DNA of 40,384 nucleotides from Succinatimonas hippei YIT 12066 (GTDB lineage Bacteria; Pseudomonadota; Gammaproteobacteria; Enterobacterales; Succinivibrionaceae), in assembly GCF_000188195.1 (NCBI RefSeq), contig NZ_GL830971.1, forward strand, positions 1 through 40,384, given 5' to 3'. Shown in pieces: positions 1,086 to 39,412 of the stretch; the first letter of the stretch is position 1, and each line of letters opens with the position of its first letter. The translations under genes and the position numbers were made by a program. The notes under the pieces were generated by a model. That model worked only from the letters and a program-made list of their open reading frames with translations, did not search any database and was not told where the DNA came from.

Positions 1086-2498
1086 TTAGAGGCTGTAGTA
1101 CATCTCGAATTCAATCGGATGCGGAGCGGTCTGCAAACGTGAAACTTCACCGCGCTTTAATTCAATGTAGGACTTAATCATGTCCTCAGTGAAAACTCCA
1201 CCTTCGGTTAAGAATTCATGATCTTTCTCCAATGCATCCAAAGCTTCAGCTAAAGTTGCGCACACTGACGGAATTGAATCAGCTTCTTCAGGAGGCAAAT
1301 CATAAAGATTCTTGTCCATCGGATCGCCCGGCTCAATGTGATTAAGAATTCCGTCAAGTCCGGCCATAAGCATAGCGGCAAAAGCTAAATACGGATTTGC
1401 CATGCAGTCCGGGAAGCGGACCTCAATATGAGCAGTTTTAGGATTTTGAGCTACCGGAATGCGAATTGAAGCAGAACGGTTGGAAGCTGAGTAAGCAAGC
1501 ATTACTGGGGCCTCAAAGTGCGGAACCAGACGCTTGTAAGAATTGGTAGAAGGATTGGTGAAAGCATTTAACGCTTTAGCGTGCTTAATAATACCGCCTA
1601 TGTACCACAAAGCTTCCTGTGACAATCCGCCGTACATATTTCCGGCAAAAATATTCTCGCCGTCACGGCCGATTGACTGATGGCAATGCATACCCGATCC
1701 GTTGTCACCGAAAATAGGCTTAGGCATGAAGGTAGCACTCTTGCCGTACTGATTGGCTACATTCTGTACGATATATTTATAGACCTGAACTTCGTCGGCT
1801 TTCTTGGTGAGGGTGTTGAATTTGGTGGCAATTTCGTTCTGTCCGCATGTTGCAACTTCATGATGATGAGCCTCAACCTCAAGGCCGAACTCTTCCATGA
1901 TAAGGCACATTGCTGAACGGATATCCTGGGAAGGATCGACCGGCGGAACCGGGAAATAACCGCCCTTTACCATAGTGCGGTGACCTAAATTTCCACCTTC
2001 ATAGTCAGTAGCTGAATTCCAAGCGGCCTCATAATCATCTACCTTATACATGCAGCCGCCCATCTCATTTGAGAACTTAACATCATCAAATAAGAAAAAT
2101 TCAGGCTCAGGACCGAAATAGGCTTCATCACCGATACCGGTTGAGCGCAAATATTCTTCTGCACGCTTGGCTACAGAACGCGGATCACGGTCATAACCGG
2201 TCATTGTATCGGCTTCAAGAACATCACATCTTACAATGATAGTAGGATCGGCATAAAAAGGATCCAAGTGCACGCTGTCGGCATCCGGCATCAAAATCAT
2301 GTCGGATTTATCAACGCCTTTCCATCCGGCCATTGATGAACCGTCAAACATCTTACCTTCAGAGAAGAAATCTTCCGTCACAAGTTTTGCAGGAATTGAA
2401 ACATGCTGCTCTTTTCCCTTAGTATCGGTAAAGCGCAAATCAGCAAACTTAACGCCGTTTTCTTCAATAAGCTTTAATACATCAGCAACGGTTGTCAT
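1086..2498 (-). CDS. glnA: Type I glutamine synthetase
   Basis: Glutamine synthetase (GS-I beta) joins ammonia to glutamate using ATP; it is a cytoplasmic dodecamer and the entry point of nitrogen assimilation. The protein from the ATG at 2496-2498 has 470 residues, matching E. coli (469). An in-frame codon further upstream (2567) is rejected because AAGGAGAT at 2507-2514 sits correctly before the chosen ATG and the family N terminus begins with [16 protein letters not shown]. The beta-grasp domain is followed by the catalytic domain with GSGMHCHQS and [17 protein letters not shown] near residue 398 is the adenylylation loop with its tyrosine, so GlnE-type modification is expected. Unlike in enterobacteria, glnA is not adjacent to glnLG; typA lies between them. 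Confidence 0.98.
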
Positions 2499-2603
2499 AA
2501 ACCGAAATCTCCTTAAAAAAGGCAAACTTAACGCAAATAGCGTGCTCACAGTGAAAACCGATTGCAAACATACCTCTAAAATTATTTAGAGCCTACCTGT
2601 TGC

Positions 2604-2670
2604 ATCATAATCTTATAAGTGTACCATTTTGGGATTTTTATCGCATTTAATTTTGCACTAAAAATAAAAC
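2604..2670 (-). promoter_or_regulatory. glnA promoter region with NtrC-like half-sites
   Basis: Read toward glnA, CCCAAAATGGTACA (2620-2633) resembles half of the NtrC consensus TGCAC-N7-GTGCA, and TGCACTAAAA (2654-2663, plus strand) is the same ten bases found twice upstream of glnL. A GTGCAA at 2686-2691 mirrors the TTGCAC at 2653-2658. AT-rich -10-like sequence (TATAAG, ATTATG) lies at about 2604-2618 on the minus strand. I found no GG-N10-GC (sigma54 -24/-12) pair between here and the glnA start. Assignment to NtrC is inference from motif and context. Confidence 0.45.
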
Positions 2671-2691
2671 ATCTGCCCAGTATATGTGCAA

Positions 2692-3195
2692 TTAATAACA
2701 ATAACGGCGGTGAACAGCTTATGCATTTGCTAGTTTCAAATCTGCCGCAATTATCTATCTTGGAGCCTGTCTTTAGACTTGAGGGCACATTCTCCATGCT
2801 CATCCGTAAGCGTAATTATCCTACCGTTAGAACAAAGCTGTGGAATAATGCATCCAGGTCACTATCTTTTTTGCTTCCGCATGCAGCGGTACTCCGATAT
2901 CTATTATCAAACAATATATTTTCCGGCAGAAACCTCCGGCTTAAAAAATGAGATTTTTCTCGCGATGATCTCCGCCCTAAAGTACGGGGTTTTAGCCGCT
3001 GATCTTTTTTGATAAATCTATCTTGAAAGCACTCTTTAATTTGGCAAAAAATTAAAATCAAAAGTTAAAATACCGTTACAAGTGTGAACAATATCTGATT
3101 TTAAAGCTCACAGCGCTTTTTTAAGGTAAAATATCGCAAATTTTATAAATTACGTTAAAGACACCATCCTTTTTTATTTATACAGGTTTGCATAT
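2692..3195. other. Intergenic region between glnA and typA, no supported gene
   Basis: About 500 bases between the glnA control region and typA. Short overlapping open frames exist on both strands, including one from an ATG at 2730 to a stop near 2951, but none has a convincing family signature. AT-rich -10-like elements (TAAAAT near 3126, TATAAAT near 3141) just upstream of typA suggest its promoter. The middle part (about 2700-3000) is visibly less AT-rich than normal spacer here and could be a decayed gene. Confidence 0.35.
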
Positions 3196-5034
3196 ATGGA
3201 CGTACAAAAGATCCGTAATATTGCCATTATCGCCCACGTTGACCATGGCAAGACCACCTTAGTCGATAAGTTATTGCGCCAATCAGGAACCTTAGATCGT
3301 ACCGAGCTCGGACAAGAGCGCGTTATGGATTCAAATGCTATTGAAAAAGAACGCGGAATCACCATATTATCCAAAAACACAGCAATTAATTGGAACGGTT
3401 ATCGCATCAATATCGTTGACACCCCAGGACATGCTGACTTCGGCGGTGAAGTAGAACGCGTTATGTCAATGGTAGATTCAGTATTACTTCTGGTTGATGC
3501 CGTTGACGGACCTATGCCGCAAACTCGCTTCGTTACCCAAAAAGCTTTTGCTCGCGGCTTAAAACCTATTGTCGTAATCAATAAATGCGATCGTCCCGGA
3601 GCTCGCCCCGATTGGGTTATCGATCAGGTCTTTGACTTATTCGATAATTTAGGAGCAACCGATGAACAGCTCGACTTCCCGGTAGTTTACGCATCAGCTC
3701 TGGCAGGATGGGCCTCCCTTGATGAAAGTTCACACGGCGACACTATGGAACCTTTATTTGAGACCATTATCGAAAAAGTTTCCCCGCCGCAAGCCGATAT
3801 CAACGGTCCGTTCCAGATGCAGATTTCCTCTCTTGATTTCACCTCATATGTAGGTGTTATCGGTGTAGGCCGCATTACCCGCGGTCGCGTACGTTCCAAT
3901 CAGCAAGTAACTATTGTCAATGCTGACGGATCTACCCGCCAGGGACGCGTCGGTCAAGTTTTAGGCTATTTAGGACTGCACCGCAACGAAGTAGAAGAAG
4001 CTGAAGCCGGCGATATTATTGCCGTAACCGGTCTTGGCGAACTCAAGATTTCAGATACAATCTGCGACAATTCCAAGGTTGAAGCATTGCCGGCCTTAAC
4101 CGTCGATGAGCCTACCGTATCTATGAACTTCTGCGTCAACACTTCTCCTTTTGCCGGCAAAGAAGGTAAATTCATCACTTCACGCAATATTGAAGAACGT
4201 CTGCGTCAGGAGCTTGTGCATAACGTAGCATTACGTGTTGAAAACACCAAAGATCCTGATCGCTTTAAAGTTTCAGGACGTGGTGAATTGCACTTATCGG
4301 TTTTAATTGAGCAAATGCGCCGCGAAGGTTACGAGCTCGGTGTTTCCCGTCCTGAAGTAATTCTTCACAAAGATGAATCCGGCAAAGTATTAGAGCCGTA
4401 TGAAGTCTTAACCTTAGATCTTAACGAAGAAAACCAAGGCCCCGTCATGGAAGAATTAGGCCGCCGCAAAGGTGAGCTTAAAAATATGAATCCGGACGGA
4501 AAAGGACGCGTTCGCCTTGACTACCGAATTCCGGCCCGCGGACTTATCGGCTTCCAAACTTTATATATGACCTTAACTTCAGGAACCGGTCTTATGTACC
4601 ATACCTTTGACAGCTATGATGCATTTGCCGGAGGTTCCATCGGTGAAAGACAAAACGGCGTGCTTATTTCTAATGATACCGGTAAAGCGGTACCGTACGC
4701 CTTATGGTTCTTGCAGGAGCGCGGACGTTTATTCGTTGATGCCGGTGAAGAAGTCTATGAAGGACAAATTATCGGTCTGCATAACCGCAGCAATGACTTA
4801 ACCGTCAACTGCCTTAAGACCAAAAAATTAACCAATGTCCGTGCCGCAGGATCGGATGATAATATCATCCTGACCCCAGCAGTTCATATGTCGCTGGAAC
4901 AAGCCCTTGAATTTATTAACGAAGACGAACTTGTCGAAGTTACTCCCAAGAGTATTCGTCTGCGTAAGAAATTCCTTTCGGATTTGGAGCGTGTTCGTGC
5001 CTTCCGTGCTGCAGGCGGAAAAAAAGCAGAATAA
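3196..5034 (+). CDS. typA: Ribosome-associated GTPase BipA/TypA
   Basis: BipA is a translational GTPase related to EF-G and LepA that binds the ribosome and helps assembly of the 50S subunit and growth under stress. It has 612 residues (E. coli 607). The G domain is at the N terminus: [10 protein letters not shown] (G1, about residues 13-22), RGITILSKN (switch I), [15 protein letters not shown] (G3, about 74-88) and [10 protein letters not shown] (G4). Domains II, III and V follow, then the BipA-specific C-terminal domain with RGLIGFQT near 450. It is followed by a strong terminator, so it is probably transcribed separately from glnLG. It lies divergently from glnA, which separates glnA from its regulators. 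Confidence 0.97.
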
Positions 5035-5060
5035 TCAAATGCTCTAAAATTGATCTTAAA

Positions 5061-5100
5061 AAAGGCTCTGTTTGCAACAAAACAGGGCCTTTAATTTATT
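5061..5100 (+). terminator. Rho-independent terminator of typA
   Basis: Stem AAAGGCTCTGTTT (5061-5073) pairs with AAACAGGGCCTTT (5080-5092), with one T-G pair and loop GCAACA, followed by TTAATTTATT. Confidence 0.85.
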
Positions 5101-5147
5101 AATAAATTGAAAAATATAAAAATATCTTCTAAAACCACTCATTAAAA

Positions 5148-5164
5148 CAATGCACTAAAATTGC
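5148..5164 (+). promoter_or_regulatory. NtrC-like box 1 upstream of glnLG
   Basis: CAATGCACTAAAATTGC, an imperfect dyad around a TGCAC half-site, identical over 17 bases to a second copy exactly 60 bp downstream. The same TGCACTAAAA decamer occurs upstream of glnA. It overlaps a possible -35 (TTGCCC, 5161-5166), so the bound protein would be placed to control the glnL promoter. Confidence 0.55.
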
Positions 5165-5191
5165 CCGTTAGATTCTTTTTTTTCATACAAT
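5161..5191 (+). promoter_or_regulatory. Possible sigma70 promoter of glnLG
   Basis: TTGCCC (5161-5166) and TACAAT (5186-5191) with a 19-base spacer. It sits between the two NtrC-like boxes. The spacer is longer than ideal, so this is tentative. Confidence 0.4.
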
Positions 5192-5204
5192 AGACAGATA
5201 AAAA

Positions 5205-5226
5205 GAGCAATGCACTAAAATTGCTC
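5205..5226 (+). promoter_or_regulatory. NtrC-like box 2 upstream of glnLG
   Basis: Perfect 7-bp inverted repeat GAGCAAT-N8-ATTGCTC enclosing TGCACTAAAA. It lies about 35 bases before the glnL start, just downstream of the predicted promoter, a position suited to autorepression as at E. coli glnLp. Confidence 0.6.
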
Positions 5227-5261
5227 ATGTAATGTATTTGTGAACAGGTGCAGGTTTTTAT

Positions 5262-6350
5262 ATGCCAACAGATGCGAAGACTATCCTTGAAAGTTTAGCG
5301 ACAGCTATCATGCTTACGGACGGGCAATATAAGATCATATATGCCAATACGTCCGCCGAGCAGCTATTCGGCATGTCGCGTTCTAAACTGCGTTCACTAA
5401 AACTTACCGATCTTATTAATCGACACGAAAAGAATTTAATGGAAAATCTTTCTCGTGCCTTAAAAGCCAATTTTCAGGGTTTTTCTGCCTCCGATATAGC
5501 TGTAGGAATCGATCCGTCTCATACCATAAGCGTTGATATGAGCATCAGCCAATACTCAGGAAAAAATAAAGGTCTTATCGTCGAAATAAAATCAATTAAT
5601 TACCAACAAAAACTTAGTTATGAACGCCAGAGACGTACCCAGCATCTGGCAGCCCGCGATCTAATCCGCAATCTTGCCCATGAAATCAAAAATCCTTTGG
5701 GAGGAATACGCGGAGCGGCCCAACTGCTTGAAATGACCTTCGGTAAAGCCGCGGACATTACCGATTACACTAAAGTCATTATTGAACAGTCCGATCGCCT
5801 TAAAACCTTAGTGGATAATTTATTAGGTCCGCAGCGTCCCAACCCGATGAGCCTTGCCAATATCCACTATGTAGTAGAAAAGGTTCTGTCGCTTGAAGCC
5901 ATGGCAACGAAAGATAAAATCCGTTTTGAAAAGGACTACGATCCTTCGCTGCCGGAATTGATGCTTGACGTTGATGCCATGCAGCAGACCTTCATCAATA
6001 TCATCAGTAATGCCATTCAAGCGCTCACAGAATCCAATACTGAAAGACCGCTCATTAAAATCCAAACTCGAGCTGTCAACGGTATGGTGATAAACGGTTT
6101 TAAATATCCGACTTCTATTTGCGTATCTATAACGGATAACGGACCGGGTATTCCGGAAAGCATCATGCCTAAAATTTTCTACCCGATGGTAACTTCAAGA
6201 TCCAAAGGGAACGGACTAGGCTTATCCATTGCTCAAAGCATTGTCGAACGCCATAACGGCACTATCGAATGTGAAAGCCACAAAGGAAAAACGACTTTTT
6301 CCGTAATTTTACCCATAAAAAAAGATGTGTTTAAAAGCGAGGAAATTTAA
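5262..6350 (+). CDS. glnL: Nitrogen regulation sensor kinase NtrB
   Basis: NtrB (GlnL) phosphorylates or dephosphorylates NtrC depending on PII/nitrogen status. It is a soluble 362-residue protein (E. coli 349). An N-terminal PAS-like sensor covers about residues 10-110. The H-box LAHEIKNPLGG carries the phosphorylated His140. The kinase domain has an N-box (NIISNAIQAL), a G1-box (DNGPGIP) and a G2-box (GNGLGLSIAQ), so it looks active. ATG follows weak Shine-Dalgarno material (ACAGGTGCAGG). The stop is two bases before the glnG ATG, so the two are translationally coupled. Two NtrC-like boxes precede the gene. Confidence 0.95.
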   Translation: MPTDAKTILESLATAIMLTDGQYKIIYANTSAEQLFGMSRSKLRSLKLTDLINRHEKNLMENLSRALKANFQGFSASDIAVGIDPSHTISVDMSISQYSGKNKGLIVEIKSINYQQKLSYERQRRTQHLAARDLIRNLAHEIKNPLGGIRGAAQLLEMTFGKAADITDYTKVIIEQSDRLKTLVDNLLGPQRPNPMSLANIHYVVEKVLSLEAMATKDKIRFEKDYDPSLPELMLDVDAMQQTFINIISNAIQALTESNTERPLIKIQTRAVNGMVINGFKYPTSICVSITDNGPGIPESIMPKIFYPMVTSRSKGNGLGLSIAQSIVERHNGTIECESHKGKTTFSVILPIKKDVFKSEEI

Positions 6351-6352
6351 CT

Positions 6353-7783
6353 ATGGATCCCATGATTTGGGTTATTGATGACGATGCCAGCATTCGTTTC
6401 GTGTTTGATAAAGCGCTTGATGTCAACAGTATTTCCCATCGCTTATTTGAAACCGGAGATGAAGCTCTCGCCTACTTAAAAACAGAGATCCCTGATGTTA
6501 TAGTCTCTGATATCAACATGCCGGGAACCGACGGTCTTTCCCTTATAAAAAAAGTACATGAGGTTGACTGTAATATTCCGTTTATTATCATAACCGCCCA
6601 TAGCGACTTAACCGCCGCAATTGATTCTTATGAGCACGGAACTTTTGAATATCTGCCCAAACCTTTTGATATCGAGCAGGCTGTAAGTCTTATCCGTCGT
6701 GCGGCACTGCACCGCTTTAACCTAACCCGTAAAAAGGAAATGGTTTTAGCAAGCGATGCCGTAGCTGACAGTAAAGAAGCCGAAATAATCGGCAAATCTC
6801 CGGCCATGCAGGAAGTATTTAAATTCATAGGACGCGTATCGCGTACTGAGGTTCCGGTTCTTATCCACGGTGAAACAGGAACAGGGCGTGAACTTGTTGC
6901 CATGGCTTTGCATAACCACTCCGATCGCAAAGAGCAGCCGTTTATTTCAGTAAATGTTTCTTCAATGCCCAAAGAAACGGTTGAACATGAAATTTTCGGC
7001 GGTATCGGCAAAGGTGATAAAGAAGAAGCGGCTATCGTAAAAGCACAAAACGGCACTTTGTTTATTAATGAAATCTGCGAAATGCCGATGGAAGCCCAAA
7101 CTCGTTTGCTGCAGGTTTTACAAAAAGGCGAGTTTTTGCCAGTAGGAGAACAAAAACCGCATAAAGTGAATGTAAGAATTATTGCTGCGACAAGCCGCGT
7201 ACTTGAAAATCTGGTAAAAGAAGGAACTTTTATTTCTGATCTCTACTACAGATTAAATATTATTCACATCAATATGCCGCCGCTGCGCGATCGCAACAAC
7301 GACATCCCGATGCTGGCTAAGCACTTCCTAAATCAAAGTGCGATTGAAAATAATACCGAGCCTAAAAAACTGACTTCTGAGGTTCTGGTTTTCTTGTGCC
7401 GTCAGCAATGGCCCGGTAATGTACGTCAACTGAAAAACCTCTGTAAATACTTAACCATCATGGTTACCGGCAGAGACATTCAACTAAGCGATTTACCGGC
7501 CGAGTTTTTACAAGCGAGAAACACCCAGGTTAAAACCACAACTTCAATCTCAGGAACCTCTAAAGAGCCGGTTTCATGGCAGGAACAGCTGCGTAATTGG
7601 GTTGACGGAAGATTAAAAGCAGGAGAAAGAGACATTCTTTCAGAAGCAACTCCCGAATTTGAGCGCGTCATGCTTGAAGCGGCACTTGCCTATACGGGCA
7701 ATCATAAGCAGGAATCGGCCAAGCTCTTAGGATGGGGTAGAAATACTCTTACACGAAAGATAAAAGAATTAAATCTCCAGTAA
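6353..7783 (+). CDS. glnG: NtrC response regulator lacking the sigma54 activation loop
   Basis: NtrC homologue of 476 residues (E. coli 469). The receiver domain (1-120) is intact: acidic pair D10/D11, phosphorylated Asp53 in SDINMPGTDG, and K103. The C-terminal Fis-type DNA-binding domain is nearly identical to enterobacterial NtrC (LLGWGRNTLTRKIKEL). The central AAA+ domain is recognisable but altered at its key positions: Walker A reads GETGTGRE, with Arg179 for Lys; the segment after EIFG (215-232) is about five residues shorter than normal and has no GAFTGA; Walker B reads LFINE, with Asn239 for Asp; the first Arg of the Arg-finger region is replaced (FISDLYYRL). GAFTGA is what contacts sigma54, so this protein is predicted to bind DNA when phosphorylated but not to open sigma54 promoters. 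Rhodobacter capsulatus NtrC is a known GAFTGA-less, sigma70-dependent precedent. The gene assignment is certain; the functional change is inference. Confidence 0.95.
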   Translation: MDPMIWVIDDDASIRFVFDKALDVNSISHRLFETGDEALAYLKTEIPDVIVSDINMPGTDGLSLIKKVHEVDCNIPFIIITAHSDLTAAIDSYEHGTFEYLPKPFDIEQAVSLIRRAALHRFNLTRKKEMVLASDAVADSKEAEIIGKSPAMQEVFKFIGRVSRTEVPVLIHGETGTGRELVAMALHNHSDRKEQPFISVNVSSMPKETVEHEIFGGIGKGDKEEAAIVKAQNGTLFINEICEMPMEAQTRLLQVLQKGEFLPVGEQKPHKVNVRIIAATSRVLENLVKEGTFISDLYYRLNIIHINMPPLRDRNNDIPMLAKHFLNQSAIENNTEPKKLTSEVLVFLCRQQWPGNVRQLKNLCKYLTIMVTGRDIQLSDLPAEFLQARNTQVKTTTSISGTSKEPVSWQEQLRNWVDGRLKAGERDILSEATPEFERVMLEAALAYTGNHKQESAKLLGWGRNTLTRKIKELNLQ

Positions 7784-33663: not shown

Positions 33664-34873
33664 CAATTGAATCCCATATCAATCTTTCATCAAATTCTTC
33701 AGCTGCAAATATTGTGATAATAACTACAAGACAAAATGTGATAATGGCAAATCCGGGATCGATTGTCATCAAGCCGCTGAATCTGACCACTGATGTCATT
33801 ATAATCACAACAAAAACGTCAATCATTGACCACTTGCCGATAAAAGAAACAATTCTGTAACATTTTGATAGTAATTGAGGCTTTTGCGAACGACGATATT
33901 TAACGATAAACATTAAAACAAGCAATGCAATAATTTTCAAAACCGGAATACAGATACTGGCTAAAAAAATTACACACGCAACAAAATAGGAATCCATTTG
34001 CCACAAAGTAACAACACCTTCTAAGATGTTAGATCCTGTTTCATTTCCAAGATATGATGTGAACATGATCGGATATAAATTTGAAGGCAAATATAAAATT
34101 ATTGCAGATAACAGTAATGCCGCAGCTTTTTGATAACAATCGTAATTTCTTACTCGTCCTATATGACCGCAACGCGGACATCTTTTATAGAAACGCGCAT
34201 TATAAACAAAAGAACAATGCCTACATAACAATAAATCTTGTTTTTTGCCTGAAATTCCGGGAACAATATCAATATTTGCAGATTTTACTTTATTCCAAAT
34301 ATCTTGAGGTTTTACTTTGGTATAAAGCCAAATCATCATGACGGAAAAAATACCGGATAAAATAAAACCGCTATGGAATTCGACCTCAACTAAAGCGGTT
34401 AACTTGATAAGACTTACTAAAACTCCCAAAATAAACACATCAATCATACAAAAACGATGACTGAAGGCATATATCTCACCGATTATCGGCGTAACTTTTA
34501 AATTAAAAAGACCGGTACCGATAATCGTAAATAACATGAACAAAGGAAACAAAAAAGTAAACAGAACACAAACGTAGAGCAGCAAAATCCAATTAGTATG
34601 CAGAACGGTAAAAATGGAAATCAGCCGCATTTCCTGATTAATTCCGAGGATAGATAAGGAAAGAAAAGGCTCAAAAATAGACAATATAAAAAAGATAAGT
34701 GCCGCAATCGAAATTACAGCACAATGATGCAATGAATAAATTCGGCCGCTTCTTAAAGTAGCTCCGCAGCGCGGGCAAGAACACTTTATTCCTTTCTTAT
34801 AAGGAGGCAGTGTAACGGCCCAATCACAGGAAGGGCAAAGTTTAACCTGTGATTTATCTGCAATATTATTAAT
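33638..34873 (-). CDS. pqiA: Intermembrane transport protein PqiA with a non-standard start codon
   Basis: Inner membrane partner of PqiB. The first standard start (TTG at 34730-34732) would give 364 residues and lose the conserved N-terminal zinc-binding domain. In the same frame upstream the translation continues with CPSCDWAVTLPPYKKG and CPRCGATLRS, as in E. coli PqiA, back to a stop at 34877-34879. Between that stop and the first CxxC there is no ATG, GTG or TTG. The only plausible starts are ATA 34874-34876 or ATT 34871-34873, within 6-9 bases after GAAGG at the end of nrdG. Using ATT gives 411 residues (E. coli 417). A second CxxC pair (CRHCSF..CPRCG) follows the first group of membrane spans. 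The start overlaps the nrdG stop. Confidence 0.85.
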   Translation of the reverse strand: MNNIADKSQVKLCPSCDWAVTLPPYKKGIKCSCPRCGATLRSGRIYSLHHCAVISIAALIFFILSIFEPFLSLSILGINQEMRLISIFTVLHTNWILLLYVCVLFTFLFPLFMLFTIIGTGLFNLKVTPIIGEIYAFSHRFCMIDVFILGVLVSLIKLTALVEVEFHSGFILSGIFSVMMIWLYTKVKPQDIWNKVKSANIDIVPGISGKKQDLLLCRHCSFVYNARFYKRCPRCGHIGRVRNYDCYQKAAALLLSAIILYLPSNLYPIMFTSYLGNETGSNILEGVVTLWQMDSYFVACVIFLASICIPVLKIIALLVLMFIVKYRRSQKPQLLSKCYRIVSFIGKWSMIDVFVVIIMTSVVRFSGLMTIDPGFAIITFCLVVIITIFAAEEFDERLIWDSIDERRKKAR

Positions 34874-35394
34874 TATTTAAAACCTTCAGCCAAAACTACT
34901 TTACCTAAAGATAATGATTTTTGCACATCAATAATGCGCTGATTGCTTGAACCTCTAAAATCTAAATCAAGAGATTTTAAAGATTGAACAAAAGGACCGT
35001 CAACCACTACATCCAAAAGATCTAAAAGCTCATGGCGCATAAAATCATCACTTAACTTATCAAAAGTATATCCCGAATAAGACCACAGAGAATAACCTTC
35101 TTCTTTAAGGATCTTTGATAAAGTAATTAAAGGACGGGTTTGAATAAACGGCTCACCGCCAGAATATGTAACGCCGGTAATTAAGGGATTTGCTTTAATT
35201 TCATCATACAAAACCCTTAATTTTACTTCCATACCGCCGTTTAAAGGCTGAGCCTGAGGATTATGACAGCCATGGCAATGGAAAGGACATCCTTGGGTAA
35301 AAATCGTATAACGAATACCGGGGCCGTCAACGATGGACTCGGGAACTACTCCGGCAATACGAATATAAGTATCATCAAGAACCCGAAGATCCAT
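34873..35394 (-). CDS. nrdG: Anaerobic ribonucleotide reductase activase (radical SAM)
   Basis: Uses a 4Fe-4S cluster and S-adenosylmethionine to create the glycyl radical of NrdD. It has 173 residues (E. coli 154). The radical SAM motif CxxxCxxC is CPFHCHGCHNP (about residues 36-46); TYSGGEPF is the SAM-binding GGE motif. ATG at 35392-35394, preceded by GAGGTAAAAGTT. It lies 14 bases after the separate glycyl-radical ORF. Its end overlaps the predicted pqiA start. Confidence 0.96.
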   Translation of the reverse strand: MDLRVLDDTYIRIAGVVPESIVDGPGIRYTIFTQGCPFHCHGCHNPQAQPLNGGMEVKLRVLYDEIKANPLITGVTYSGGEPFIQTRPLITLSKILKEEGYSLWSYSGYTFDKLSDDFMRHELLDLLDVVVDGPFVQSLKSLDLDFRGSSNQRIIDVQKSLSLGKVVLAEGFK

Positions 35395-35408: not shown

Positions 35409-35567
35409 TTAGACATGCATATGCTTAACGCGATCTTTTTCTTCAGCGCGCTTTGCATTATTAAAACGATCTAAAGTTCCGACCAAATAACCGGTTACTC
35501 TTCTGATACGCTCGAATTTAACGCCTTCACCAACAACACCGTTACGGGCATTTAATCTTGTTACCAT
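35409..35567 (-). CDS. Separately encoded glycyl-radical domain of class III ribonucleotide reductase
   Basis: 52-residue protein that is essentially only the C-terminal glycyl-radical segment of NrdD: RIRRVTGYLVGTLDRFNNAK (21-40), with radical Gly26 in RVTGY, then AEEKDRVKHMHV; compare the E. coli NrdD end RRVCGYLG...VKRRVKHL. It has its own ATG (35565-35567) with an excellent AAAGGAGA five to six bases upstream, 25 bases after the stop of the large chain and in a different frame. The upstream in-frame extension (to 35621) does not resemble NrdD and covers the Shine-Dalgarno, so a simple frameshift does not explain the split. Predicted role: radical-bearing second chain that completes the large subunit and is activated by NrdG. 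Confidence 0.85.
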   Translation of the reverse strand: MVTRLNARNGVVGEGVKFERIRRVTGYLVGTLDRFNNAKRAEEKDRVKHMHV

Positions 35568-35592
35568 TTTTTTCTCCTTTAAAAACAAACCA

Positions 35593-37860
35593 TTATCCGC
35601 GACAAATACAATCAACGCCAAGTTTGCTTAGTCTTTCTATTGTAACACCTTCACCGTCATGACGACCGCATTTAGGGCATACGTCGTTAATAACACCGAC
35701 ATAACCGCAAACCGGGCAGCGATCTACAGGATGATTTACCGATCCGTAGCTGATGCCGCATTCTTTCATATATAAAATAACTTTTTCAAAAGCATCGACA
35801 TTGCGAGTCAAATCTCCGTCCATTTCCACATAAGAAATAGCACCGGCATTGCACAGCTCATGGAACGGAGCCTCAAGTCTTATCTTATCTGCTGCGCTTA
35901 TATTGTAATAAACAGGAATATGGAAGCTGTTGGTGTAATACTCCCTGTCGGTTATACCTTTAATAGATCCGTAAATTTGACGGTCAATCTTAACGAATCT
36001 TCCGGATAATCCTTCGGCTGGGGTTGAGAACAGCGAGAAATTAAGTCCGGTCTTAACCATTTGCTCATCGGTCAAGGCACGCATGTGCTTAATAATCTCA
36101 TAACCTAACTTATAAGATTCTTCACTTTCACCATGATGTTTACCGGTTAAAGCGACAAGGGTTTCTGCAAGACCGATAAAGCCAACTGAAAGAGAGCCGT
36201 GCTTAATAACATCCTCAATCTTGTCATCCATGTTAAGGCGCTCTGAATCAATCCACACGCCTTGTCCCATGAGGAAAGGATAGTTATAAACGTGCTTATT
36301 GGCAATAATCTCAAAACGATCTAAAAGCTGATTAAAAATAAGGTGAACGACAGAATCCAATGATTCATAGAACTTGCTTATAGAACCATGAGCTTCGATA
36401 CCTAAACGCGGCAAGTTAACTGTGGTAAAAGATAAATTACCGCGACCAGGAATAATTTCTCTGGTTTTATCATAGTAATTTCCGAAAACTCTGGTACGGC
36501 ATCCCATAACAGCCAGCTCGGTTTCAGGATGTCCGGGCTTATAGTACTGCAAATTAAAAGGAGCATCCAAAAATGAAAAGTTCGGGAACAGACGTTTTGC
36601 TGAAACTTTGCAGGCAAGACGGAACAAATCATAATTAGGATCGCCTTCTTTAGTATTGATACCGTCTTTTACCTTGAAAATTTGAACCGGGAAAATAGGA
36701 GTTTCACCTCCGCCCAAACCGGCATCAGTGGCAAGCAGCACGTTTTTCATAATCATACGCTGCTCAGGAGTAGTTCCTGTTCCGTAATTAATTGATGAAA
36801 AAGGAACTTGTGCTCCGGCACGGCTTTGCATGGAATTTAAGTTATGAATAACGGCTTCCATAGCCTGATAAGTTTCACGCTCAGTAAGCTTATAAGCTTC
36901 AGTCATGATATAAGAACCGTCTTTTTGCAAAGCTTCATCGTCTTTGTAGAACGGTTTGATTATATCCATAACCTTTGCTTTGATTTTTACTGCCGCCTCA
37001 TCACTTAAAACAGTCTCAAACTCCTTGTAAACTTCACGACAAAAATCTTTAAGCAAAGACAAATCAATAGAGTCATCGCGCAAAGTTATCTGAATTACCT
37101 TGCACAAATGCTTAATATAAGAAGTAACTACATAAGGGGCCAAATCATACTCAAACATAGGAATAGATTGACCGCCGTGCATATCGTTCTGATTAGACTG
37201 AATGGCGATACAGCACAAAGCAGATGCTGACTGAATAGACTGCGGCTCACGTAAAAAACCGTGTCCGGTCGAAAAACCGCGTTTAAATAAACTCTTTAGA
37301 CTGATTTGGCAGCAATTAATAGTTAAAAGATAAAAATCCAAATCGTGAATATGGATAGAGCCGTTGCTGTGAGCCAATGCATGCTCTGGTTTTAAGACAT
37401 AACGCTTAACGAAATCTTTTGATCCCTCAGAACCAAAGCGCAGCATGAGGCCCATCGGTGCATTGGCATCAATATTGGCGTTCTCACGCTTTAAATCCAT
37501 ATCATCAGTGGATTTAGAGGTTAAATCACGATAAATTTGGGTAAGTTCGGCATTGTAGGTACGCACATTAGTACGCTGCTGACGATACAAAATAAAATTT
37601 TTAGCCTCATCAGCAAGATCGTGCTTAATTAAAATCCTTTCAATTAAGTCCTGAGTATGTTCAACAGTAGGAACCTTGGTAACTTCACTTTCAATAGCAT
37701 TTATAACTTCTTCGGTTAACTGAACGACAAGTTCCTCATCTTGAGGTGTTACATCATCGTCAGGATGAACTGAAACCAAGGCCTTTTTAATGGCATTTGC
37801 AATTTTCTGTTGGTTAAAAGAAACCTTACGTCCGTCTCTTTTAACAATAAATCTAATCAT
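35593..37860 (-). CDS. nrdD: Class III ribonucleotide reductase large chain lacking the glycyl-radical tail
   Basis: Oxygen-sensitive reductase making dNTPs from NTPs. The chosen ATG (37858-37860) has AAAGGCAAAG upstream and gives 755 residues; the longer in-frame extension to 37929 is rejected because the ATP-cone begins at IRFIVKRDGRKV. Order: ATP-cone (2-95), ten-strand barrel with NCCQISLKSL and QSNQNDMHGGQS, GCRTRVFGN, and a zinc ribbon CPVCG...CPKCG (about 715-735). The style is closer to Firmicute NrdD than to E. coli NrdD. The chain ends about 20 residues after the zinc ribbon with DCICRG and has no RVxGY motif; that motif is in the next small ORF. It may have been acquired by transfer. 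Confidence 0.95.
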   Translation of the reverse strand: MIRFIVKRDGRKVSFNQQKIANAIKKALVSVHPDDDVTPQDEELVVQLTEEVINAIESEVTKVPTVEHTQDLIERILIKHDLADEAKNFILYRQQRTNVRTYNAELTQIYRDLTSKSTDDMDLKRENANIDANAPMGLMLRFGSEGSKDFVKRYVLKPEHALAHSNGSIHIHDLDFYLLTINCCQISLKSLFKRGFSTGHGFLREPQSIQSASALCCIAIQSNQNDMHGGQSIPMFEYDLAPYVVTSYIKHLCKVIQITLRDDSIDLSLLKDFCREVYKEFETVLSDEAAVKIKAKVMDIIKPFYKDDEALQKDGSYIMTEAYKLTERETYQAMEAVIHNLNSMQSRAGAQVPFSSINYGTGTTPEQRMIMKNVLLATDAGLGGGETPIFPVQIFKVKDGINTKEGDPNYDLFRLACKVSAKRLFPNFSFLDAPFNLQYYKPGHPETELAVMGCRTRVFGNYYDKTREIIPGRGNLSFTTVNLPRLGIEAHGSISKFYESLDSVVHLIFNQLLDRFEIIANKHVYNYPFLMGQGVWIDSERLNMDDKIEDVIKHGSLSVGFIGLAETLVALTGKHHGESEESYKLGYEIIKHMRALTDEQMVKTGLNFSLFSTPAEGLSGRFVKIDRQIYGSIKGITDREYYTNSFHIPVYYNISAADKIRLEAPFHELCNAGAISYVEMDGDLTRNVDAFEKVILYMKECGISYGSVNHPVDRCPVCGYVGVINDVCPKCGRHDGEGVTIERLSKLGVDCICRG

Positions 37861-37994: not shown

Positions 37995-38326
37995 CGCATT
38001 ATTAAAAATCCCGCTCAACACGGTATGGATTAGGCTTTAAAGAGTTTTCTTTGGCATTAAATAAAGTTAAAAAATTTTATCAGAAGATAAATTTTATACT
38101 TTATAAAACAGAAAGCACAAAGCAATAAAAACTCAGATTTAATTAAATTAAAATGTTTATATTAGAATAATTTAAATATTAAACACCTATAATATTAACC
38201 ATATCAATATAATAATTATATATACAAAAAATAAACTCATCTCTACAAAAAAAAGATAATGAGTTTTAGCGGTTAAAATTGTTTATGCTCCTATTTAACG
38301 ATTTTTTTTTAAACAAATTTAAGCTC
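37995..38326. other. AT-rich divergent spacer between nrdD and earP
   Basis: Very AT-rich, no gene. An inverted repeat AAACTCAT (38233-38240) / ATGAGTTT (38259-38266) with an 18-base loop lies just before earP and may be a leader hairpin or terminator. Promoters are likely here but cannot be told apart in such AT-rich sequence. Confidence 0.4.
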
Positions 38327-39412
38327 ATGATTACAAAAATAGAAAATAGTTTTGATATTTTTTGTACAGTTCTTGATAACTACGGGGATGCGGGAGTGTG
38401 TCTTCGTTTGGCAAGAGATTTAAGTCTTAAGAATTTCAACGTTTTTCTATATTGTGACGACCTTAAAACTCTTAATACTATAAAAGATAAAAATGATGAG
38501 GAAAACCCGAATCTTCACATAAAAAAATGGGATAGCGCACTTGATGACTATAATCCAAGCAAATATGTTATCCAGGCTTTTTCCTGCCGTCTTTGTCAAA
38601 ACGCTATAGAAAAAATCAAAAAAAATAAAGTAAAAGTAGTCAATTTAGAATACTTAAGTGCTGAAAAATGGATTGAGGATTGTCATAAACGTCCGTCTTT
38701 TGGTGACGGCTTTACAAGCTATTTCTTTTTCCCGGGATTTACAAAAAAAACCGGAGGAATTATTACCGAAGAAAAATTTATAAAAAAATTAATTGAAAAT
38801 AAAAAATATAATCACAAAAACAATGAAATAAGAAAAGTAACATTATTTTCTTATGAAAATTCTCATATAAAAGACATATTATCTTTACTTGCAAAGTCCG
38901 CCAAAAAAAGTGAGATCACCGTTTTTGAAGGTAAAGCGCTAAACAATCTTAATCAGCAATTAAAAATTAATATACTTCCGGGACAACATTTTGACTTAAA
39001 TGAAAAAATATCTATAAAAGCAGTAAAAATGGTTTCACAAGATGAATATGACGATTATCTGCTGTCATCTGAGTTAAATCTGGTTCGTGGAGAAGATTCG
39101 ATTGTCCGTGCAATGTTAAGCGGAAAACCTTTTTTATGGCAAATATACGTTCAGGAAGACAATGCACACATTTTAAAGTTGATGTCTTTCTTTGACCGAC
39201 TTGAAGAAGTAGTTAAACCGTCTGAAACATTTTTAACTCTTAAAGATTTAATGCTTGCATATAACGATGCTCACGAAGTTCCTTTAATTGATTCATACGA
39301 TGAGTTTGAGCAAAACATCAATGAAATATTTAAACTTTGGTCTATACACTTACAAAATCTAGGCTCGCTTAGCGATAATCTTTGCGATTTTTTACTAAGT
39401 CTTAACTCATAA
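38327..39412 (+). CDS. earP: EF-P arginine 32 rhamnosyltransferase EarP
   Basis: Transfers rhamnose from dTDP-rhamnose to Arg32 of elongation factor P. From ATG 38327 the protein has 361 residues; longer in-frame starts (38285, or TTG 38279) are possible but family members begin about ten residues before the DIFC..DNYGD motif, which this start matches. The N-terminal DNYGDAGVCLRLARDL holds the catalytic aspartates; NLEYLSAEKW and FFPGFTKKTGG follow; the nucleotide-sugar site is RGEDSIVRAMLSGKPFLWQIY. It is adjacent to its substrate gene efp. No clear Shine-Dalgarno. Confidence 0.93.
   Translation: MITKIENSFDIFCTVLDNYGDAGVCLRLARDLSLKNFNVFLYCDDLKTLNTIKDKNDEENPNLHIKKWDSALDDYNPSKYVIQAFSCRLCQNAIEKIKKNKVKVVNLEYLSAEKWIEDCHKRPSFGDGFTSYFFFPGFTKKTGGIITEEKFIKKLIENKKYNHKNNEIRKVTLFSYENSHIKDILSLLAKSAKKSEITVFEGKALNNLNQQLKINILPGQHFDLNEKISIKAVKMVSQDEYDDYLLSSELNLVRGEDSIVRAMLSGKPFLWQIYVQEDNAHILKLMSFFDRLEEVVKPSETFLTLKDLMLAYNDAHEVPLIDSYDEFEQNINEIFKLWSIHLQNLGSLSDNLCDFLLSLNS

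Follow-up and report, generated by a model that had tools for sequence, protein, structure and literature searches.

In every class III ribonucleotide reductase (RNR) known to us, the glycyl radical is carried on the catalytic chain, and the NrdD proteins of S. thermophilus and phage T4 are built in this way. The only validated free radical domains that we are aware of are those that repair pyruvate formate-lyase (PFL). A further system, NrdJa/NrdJb, belongs to the B12-dependent class II. The P. copri NrdD carries its radical glycine, Gly711, on the same chain as the rest of the enzyme, in a buried loop that follows the zinc site (PMC11226230). The small proteins GrcA/YfiD and T4 Y06I replace the oxygen-destroyed domain of PFL, and the 2021 paper on such spare parts asks whether other glycyl-radical enzymes have spares, treating this only as a possibility (PMC8683613). 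An RNR encoded in two chains is found in split NrdJa/NrdJb (PMC9669993), and phage nrdD occurs in pieces, with introns, inteins and broken coding regions; a free glycyl-radical domain is not described in section 9 of that paper (PMC3653736).

The locus described here comes from Succinatimonas hippei YIT 12066, and the window is the whole stretch of 40,384 nucleotides that was analysed (contig NZ_GL830971.1). It shares the encoding of an RNR in two chains with NrdJa/NrdJb, and its features point to a class III enzyme whose radical glycine lies on a separate 52-amino acid chain, unlike that of P. copri NrdD. The relevant features are as follows.

35593 to 37860, minus strand: nrdD core gene, 755 amino acids, with an ATP-cone (PF03477), the catalytic barrel and a zinc ribbon, without the radical glycine motif
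35668 to 35718, minus strand: zinc ribbon CPVCGYVGVINDVCPKC, the last usual NrdD part still in the core
35596 to 35655, minus strand: core tail GEGVTIERLSKLGVDCICRG, which resembles the first half of the free domain (GEGVKFERIRRVTGY) and is without the Gly-Tyr
35574 to 35580, minus strand: Shine-Dalgarno-like AAAGGAG ahead of the ATG of the small gene
35409 to 35567, minus strand: gene for the free glycyl-radical domain, 52 amino acids, matching positions 532-562 of the 562 in PF13597
35490 to 35492, minus strand: codon for Gly26 (in RVTGY), which in alignment falls on the radical glycine of P. copri NrdD
34873 to 35394, minus strand: nrdG, a radical-SAM activase (TIGR02491, 147.3 bits against a cut-off of 126.1)

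The gene order on the minus strand is nrdD core, 52-amino acid gene and nrdG. The core begins with an ATG at 37860 and ends at a TAA (35595-35593) with the C-terminus CPKCGRHDGEGVTIERLSKLGVDCICRG, and RVxGY is absent from it. An earlier note made from the DNA letters alone had read the architecture in the same way, and its reading holds. The core stops shortly past the zinc ribbon, with the last ribbon cysteine 24 residues from the end, and the motif and conserved tail reside on a gene with its own ATG and AAAGGAG, 25 bases after the TAA and in another frame. The nrdG gene follows directly, starting 14 bases after the 52-amino acid gene. The likeness observed between GEGVTIERLSK in the core tail and GEGVKFERIRR at the beginning of the small protein is also real, and is common among relatives. 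Elsewhere in the window, positions 38279-39412 are predicted to encode a 377-amino acid protein, which we take to resemble the EF-P rhamnosyltransferase EarP.

The Pfam family NRDD (PF13597, 562 positions) is divided at position 532, such that the core covers 1-532 and the 52-amino acid protein covers 532-562. The latter matches PF13597 alone among Pfam families (E 0.001 or better), and PF01228 is unmatched. The core is an NrdD according to the models PRK07111 (1032 bits) and TIGR02487, both of which score above their cut-offs. Models for B12-dependent RNRs touch only core residues 1-103, which correspond to the ATP-cone, and a class II core is not matched. Like the class III enzymes of P. copri (8p23), S. 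thermophilus (9d3x) and T4 (1h78), the locus has an ATP-cone, barrel, zinc ribbon, conserved cysteines and an adjoining operon NrdG. RVxGY is missing from the catalytic chain, and it is encoded by the next gene. Residues C183, C454, C718, C728 and C731 are invariant in an alignment of 60 fused and split sequences.

Comparison with the structure of P. copri NrdD places the core on chain positions 5-254 and 284-706 of 8p23. Residues 19-50 of the 52-amino acid chain fall on positions 708-739, a match that is weak alone (E 0.0027) and whose order is consistent with that of the core. Gly26 aligns with chain position 715, which is the published Gly711 if the chain carries four extra N-terminal residues. 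AlphaFold was given a single-chain read-through of both genes, and a second model was made on an alignment of 43 fused relatives; in the alignment used for the first model, the fused sequences had aligned to the tail of the core and not to the small chain. The second model has a pTM of 0.79, and residues 130-798 of the read-through model match T4 NrdD (1h7b, Z 40.4, rmsd 2.1, 522 aligned). Because the alignment comes from fused relatives, the model speaks for compatibility of the two chains rather than for their assembly. The radical loop has a pLDDT below 50 in both read-through models, and so the docking of the chains stays a prediction.

The earlier note had named GrcA as the nearest functional analogy. 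The comparison is apt anatomically, as the window's sequence fits a small free chain with the radical glycine beside a larger enzyme without one, and GrcA/YfiD and Y06I are likewise small free domains that are also phage-borne. It goes no further than analogy, given that GrcA belongs to PF01228 and serves PFL, whereas the small protein is a member of PF13597, the NrdD family, and would serve a class III RNR. Furthermore, unlike in the GrcA system, the core in split lineages has no domain of its own.

The genome of the window (2.3 Mb, 98% complete) contains one NrdD match and one free domain, and a search of it with the 52-amino acid protein finds a single place (E 1.2e-30). A second match for an RNR large chain adjoins an NrdB-like frame and, by reading, is probably class I. 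One other gene, a 762-amino acid frame, passes the PF01228 cut-off. An intact second nrdD was rejected on the single NrdD match in this 98%-complete genome.

The small protein is matched in 42 of 97 genomes (the window's included), and 36 of these have the core. Three match only inside an ordinary long NrdD frame (G005, G010 and G020), and two that are 88-89% complete (G048 and G049) have free domains, with the core not found. In all 36 core-bearing genomes of the family, with gene ends read in each, the core is without the motif and a free domain adjoins it on the same strand. Spacers between the two vary and reach 323 nucleotides, the split cores have similar tails, and the core of one genome (G017) is spread over two contigs. 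Free-domain matches number two to four in 29 of the 36 genomes and one in the other seven, which include the window's; one of the four in G019 contains a stop. A second NrdD-like match occurs in G001 only, and it is partial, with 36% identity. The split is conserved among relatives. The earlier note had named two outcomes as fatal to its reading, namely an indel artefact and a second nrdD that is intact, and the search for them turned up neither. Beyond that first reading, the analysis revealed extra unlinked copies, viral and conjugation-linked copies, and repeated origins.

The remaining genome of the 42 (G034) has a split nrdD on a contig that by reading is phage-like. Positions 2323-6761 of this contig (contig 57, L081) hold a split NrdD without an ATP-cone, a lysin-like gene, an 86-amino acid free radical domain and an NrdG-like frame. 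The family also has two distant types of NrdD, one Clostridia-like and accompanied by free domains, the other fused and E. coli-like, and horizontal transfer likely lies behind them. The 13 family members with E. coli-like NrdD have no free match, a weak contrast because the search saw their own fused domain in only three of the 13 and would miss free domains of that type.

Outside the family, a scan of 84,980 species genomes with a core profile returned at least 590 relatives, and the best 80 were classified by script, after which each whole genome was searched for free domains. Among these 80, the core lacks the domain in 31 and is fused in 48, and one (L134) is cut by a contig end. The 31 split cases comprise seven Succinivibrionaceae and ten of Clostridia type with an adjacent free domain, and 14 with none adjacent. 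A free domain is encoded in 30 of the 31 genomes and a fused one was found in none of them. Of the 14 split Clostridia with none adjacent, 13 carry the free domain at another place in the genome, and the whole-genome search found none in L139, a metagenome-assembled genome. Free NrdD radical chains can be multi-copy and unlinked, in contrast to the same-chain radical glycine of the class III NrdD proteins known to us. Split representatives include Succinivibrio dextrinosolvens DSM 3072 (L096), Succinivibrio faecicola AGMB01872 (L097), Anaerotruncus colihominis JM4-15 (L133) and, with the domain unlinked, Ruminococcus sp. FC2018 (L145), and Subdoligranulum variabile (L082) has a core, a free domain and an NrdG-like frame. 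There are also 13 fused-NrdD genomes among the 48 that carry one to two free domains (all 13 read), such as Ructibacterium gallinarum DSM 107454 (L116).

An even draw of 147 genomes from the class of Ruminococcus sp. FC2018 (the centre included) yielded 48 that match, and only six have a free domain, which makes this state a minority in the class. The shorter-frame matches G238 and G253 from this draw are ends of fused NrdD and were rejected as free domains. The unlinked Clostridial free domain is about 90 amino acids long, with an extra conserved N-terminal half; L183, L194, L222 and similar domains have this half, of about 45 residues, in common. For two such domains and a relative, neither NCBIfam nor PHROG gave a match in the N-terminal half. 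No model for free NrdD radical domains surfaced in these two collections, only the ends of NrdD models.

Extra copies inside the window's family are single genes amid unrelated genes. Among 19 loci (L062-L080), 18 contain 19 free frames and L070 has a decayed match only. Four of these copies (L062-L065) sit at a common chromosomal site, next to a transporter of branched-chain amino acids (the neighbour identified in L062, the rest placed by cluster), and four more (L067, L075, L076 and L079) share one other place, also by cluster. Two copies adjoin a phage integrase (L068 identified, L069 by cluster), and L066 and L074 have one within about 2.5 kb.

A viral scan with the domain profile gave 506 relatives, of which the best 80 were examined, a biased set in that the query was itself a free domain. 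The frames are short in all 80 (44-163 codons from stop to stop) and hence free, and in two of them (L281 and L283) the motif is not preceded by a usual start codon. Among eight neighbouring proteins from six contigs, five from three contigs match phage families, either structural (baseplate, tail, tail fibre, tape measure) or integrase. The viral sequence L230 and the locus L074, which belongs to a genome of the window's family, have identical domains. Three Clostridial copies have relaxase or conjugation genes around them, identified for L210 and L212 and assigned for L214 because it resembles L212. The L214 domain (2341-2619) has a shortened tail after the glycine, with DRVKH missing, and is possibly decaying. 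In Eggerthella phage EL753P1 (L084, 650-4078), an NrdD without a radical domain carries what reads as an intein-like insert, and further downstream a separate frame for the radical domain is disrupted immediately ahead of its TGY.

These extra unlinked and phage copies might do other work, acting as decoys that occupy NrdG, inhibiting or modulating the reductase of the host, or donating radicals to another enzyme. Such roles would suit the variable N-termini of these copies and the absence of an NrdD match from 39 of 42 viral contigs longer than 20 kb that were searched whole, which may be fragments. However, these copies show the same conservation of the radical loop and tail as those in the operon, and T4 carries a GrcA-type spare for the PFL of its host (PMC8683613). 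We regard a different function for these copies as unlikely.

The free domains are under purifying selection. Over 35-codon cores, and with most pairs left out because dS was saturated, the median dN/dS is 0.04 for operon copies, 0.09 for extra copies, 0.09 for viral copies and 0.08 for a mostly Clostridial set. The glycine is kept in 156 of 156 distinct free frames, a count that the search patterns favour. The claim of the earlier note that the separate domain is obliged to assemble with the core finds support in conservation, co-occurrence and purifying selection, and on this sequence evidence assembly is probable.

A more restrictive possibility is that the free domain is a mere spare for oxygen-cleaved NrdD, as in strict GrcA-like repair, and not an obligatory subunit. 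The 13 fused-NrdD genomes that keep free copies are in line with this proposal, and so is the presence of a gene of oxygen-defence type near the spare in two of them. Flavodiiron proteins reduce oxygen, and in L206 and L217 the spare gene is near an ODP-flavodoxin protein of this type and a Crp-type regulator, a single arrangement in two genomes that hints at a link between the spare domain and oxygen defence. However, the window's genome and 35 other split family genomes were found to have no covalent domain to repair, and thus the free domain must serve fresh enzyme too. We therefore judge the strict spare-part proposal to be improbable for the split state, and it may apply to fused-plus-spare genomes. 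FNR-like boxes were sought ahead of 21 extra free copies and 10 nrdD genes, and none beat shuffled sequences at p <0.05 (the lowest values, 0.065 and 0.125, belong to two prophage copies with the same site), and consequently oxygen-linked control is unsupported in the window's family. In one fused-plus-spare clade, the free domain and an S-adenosylmethionine synthetase gene recur together (L208, L219, L220 and L221; one of the four identified), accompanied by a third gene that is presumably PemK/MazF-like.

Two other proposals have very little in their favour. A decaying nrdD locus with the domain as the leftover of a broken gene would account for a core tail that looks like a degenerate copy of the first strand of the domain, yet no second NrdD was found in the window's genome, and the purifying selection and the retained glycine (subject to the search patterns noted above) speak against decay. 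It is just as hard to credit that the chains are joined by programmed frameshifting, readthrough or protein splicing: the 25-nucleotide spacer and an overlapping open frame in the window would permit joining, but spacer lengths differ between relatives and the domain is elsewhere in 13 of the 14 split Clostridia that have none adjacent. Finally, a sequencing or assembly indel that separated the frames of an ordinary nrdD, to which one might attribute the overlap of the small frame (from its first possible start) with the end of the core in the next frame, is refuted by relatives and has a negligible chance of being correct, since the arrangement is constant in 36 of 36 family genomes with spacers of up to 323 nucleotides, recurs in the named strain S. 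dextrinosolvens DSM 3072, has the domain located on a separate contig in genomes of Ruminococcus type, and comes with cores that have a conserved tail of their own.

Thus, we favour the interpretation that this is a class III reductase in two chains, with a radical domain that works in trans and that evolved through a GrcA-like spare-part stage, and we assign it a probability of roughly 0.86. A tree of 81 cores with the domain left out bears on how the two-chain state arose, although it was made by a quick method with SH-aLRT support only and 27 of its 78 inner branches are unsupported. The fused or split state needs eight changes on the tree found, and placing all 33 split rows in one clade is rejected (best such tree found, p-AU 0.003). 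A fused core (L140) and a split core (L154) are sisters at 100, and in L154 the sequence ERIRRITGY has become ERIPRIKV followed by a stop, with valine at the place of the glycine and the stop at that of the tyrosine. Two other cores (L139 and L163) end in ERIRRITCSC and a stop. A genome with fused NrdD and a spare (L109) is sister to the split S. variabile (L082) at 99. One operon (L307, 2012-5445), from a genome of the class of Ruminococcus sp. FC2018, consists of a full NrdD, a 97-amino acid free domain and an NrdG-like frame, and is possibly the clearest intermediate.

The states of L154 and L140, L109 and L082, and L307 are best fitted by a history in which the spare copy came first and the built-in domain was lost later, with refusion possible at each node. 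The suggestion in the earlier note of a partial duplication followed by splitting is likewise supported by the 13 fused genomes with free domains, the L307 operon and the L154/L140 pair. Oxygen cleaves PFL at the radical glycine (PMC8683613), and NrdD is likewise cleaved by oxygen (PMC2795772, PMC12288474).

Under the two-chain interpretation, the core and the 52-amino acid domain would be translated separately from an nrdD-domain-nrdG operon, and Gly26 of the small chain would receive its radical from NrdG. Most likely, a duplicate of the radical domain would first have been freed as a spare while NrdD was still intact, and the built-in version would have disappeared from the core afterwards. 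At least one recent loss would have fallen on the radical glycine itself, the site at which glycyl-radical enzymes are cut by oxygen. A likely advantage is that, once the radical domain has been destroyed by oxygen, the cell would need to replace just a cheap chain of 6 kDa, supplied by the operon copy or by extras located on the chromosome, in prophages or on conjugative elements. What the analysis shows is the anatomy, conservation, co-occurrence, repeated change, intermediates, selection and mobile copies. That the radical is installed in trans, that the chains dock and that the domain is exchanged after damage by oxygen is what we infer, and an advantage from exchange or repair is plausible, as is a role for phages.

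More tentatively, and at slightly less than even odds, NrdD-type radical domains could be interchangeable cartridges that circulate as a mobile pool among gut and rumen anaerobes. In this scenario, hosts would time and again have dispensed with the built-in domain and come to rely on free ones. Phages, prophages and conjugative elements, for their part, would carry copies of their own with which to recharge or control the anaerobic RNR of the host whenever they require DNA precursors, above all following exposure to oxygen.

We found no description of a separately encoded NrdD radical domain in open papers, a scope that leaves out preprints and most subscription journals, and novelty in print is not assured. 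Sequences under 400 residues were removed by a size filter in one study (PMC9531940), and with filters of that kind small radical chains would stay hidden. The locus and its relatives provide a large natural set for an enzyme of DNA-precursor synthesis, with fused, fused-plus-spare and obligatory two-chain states in addition to phage copies. These organisms would allow direct tests of whether radicals pass from one chain to another, whether the domain is exchanged once oxygen has damaged it and whether phages influence DNA synthesis under anaerobic conditions, and the split lineages would offer a clear case of a spare part that has turned indispensable.
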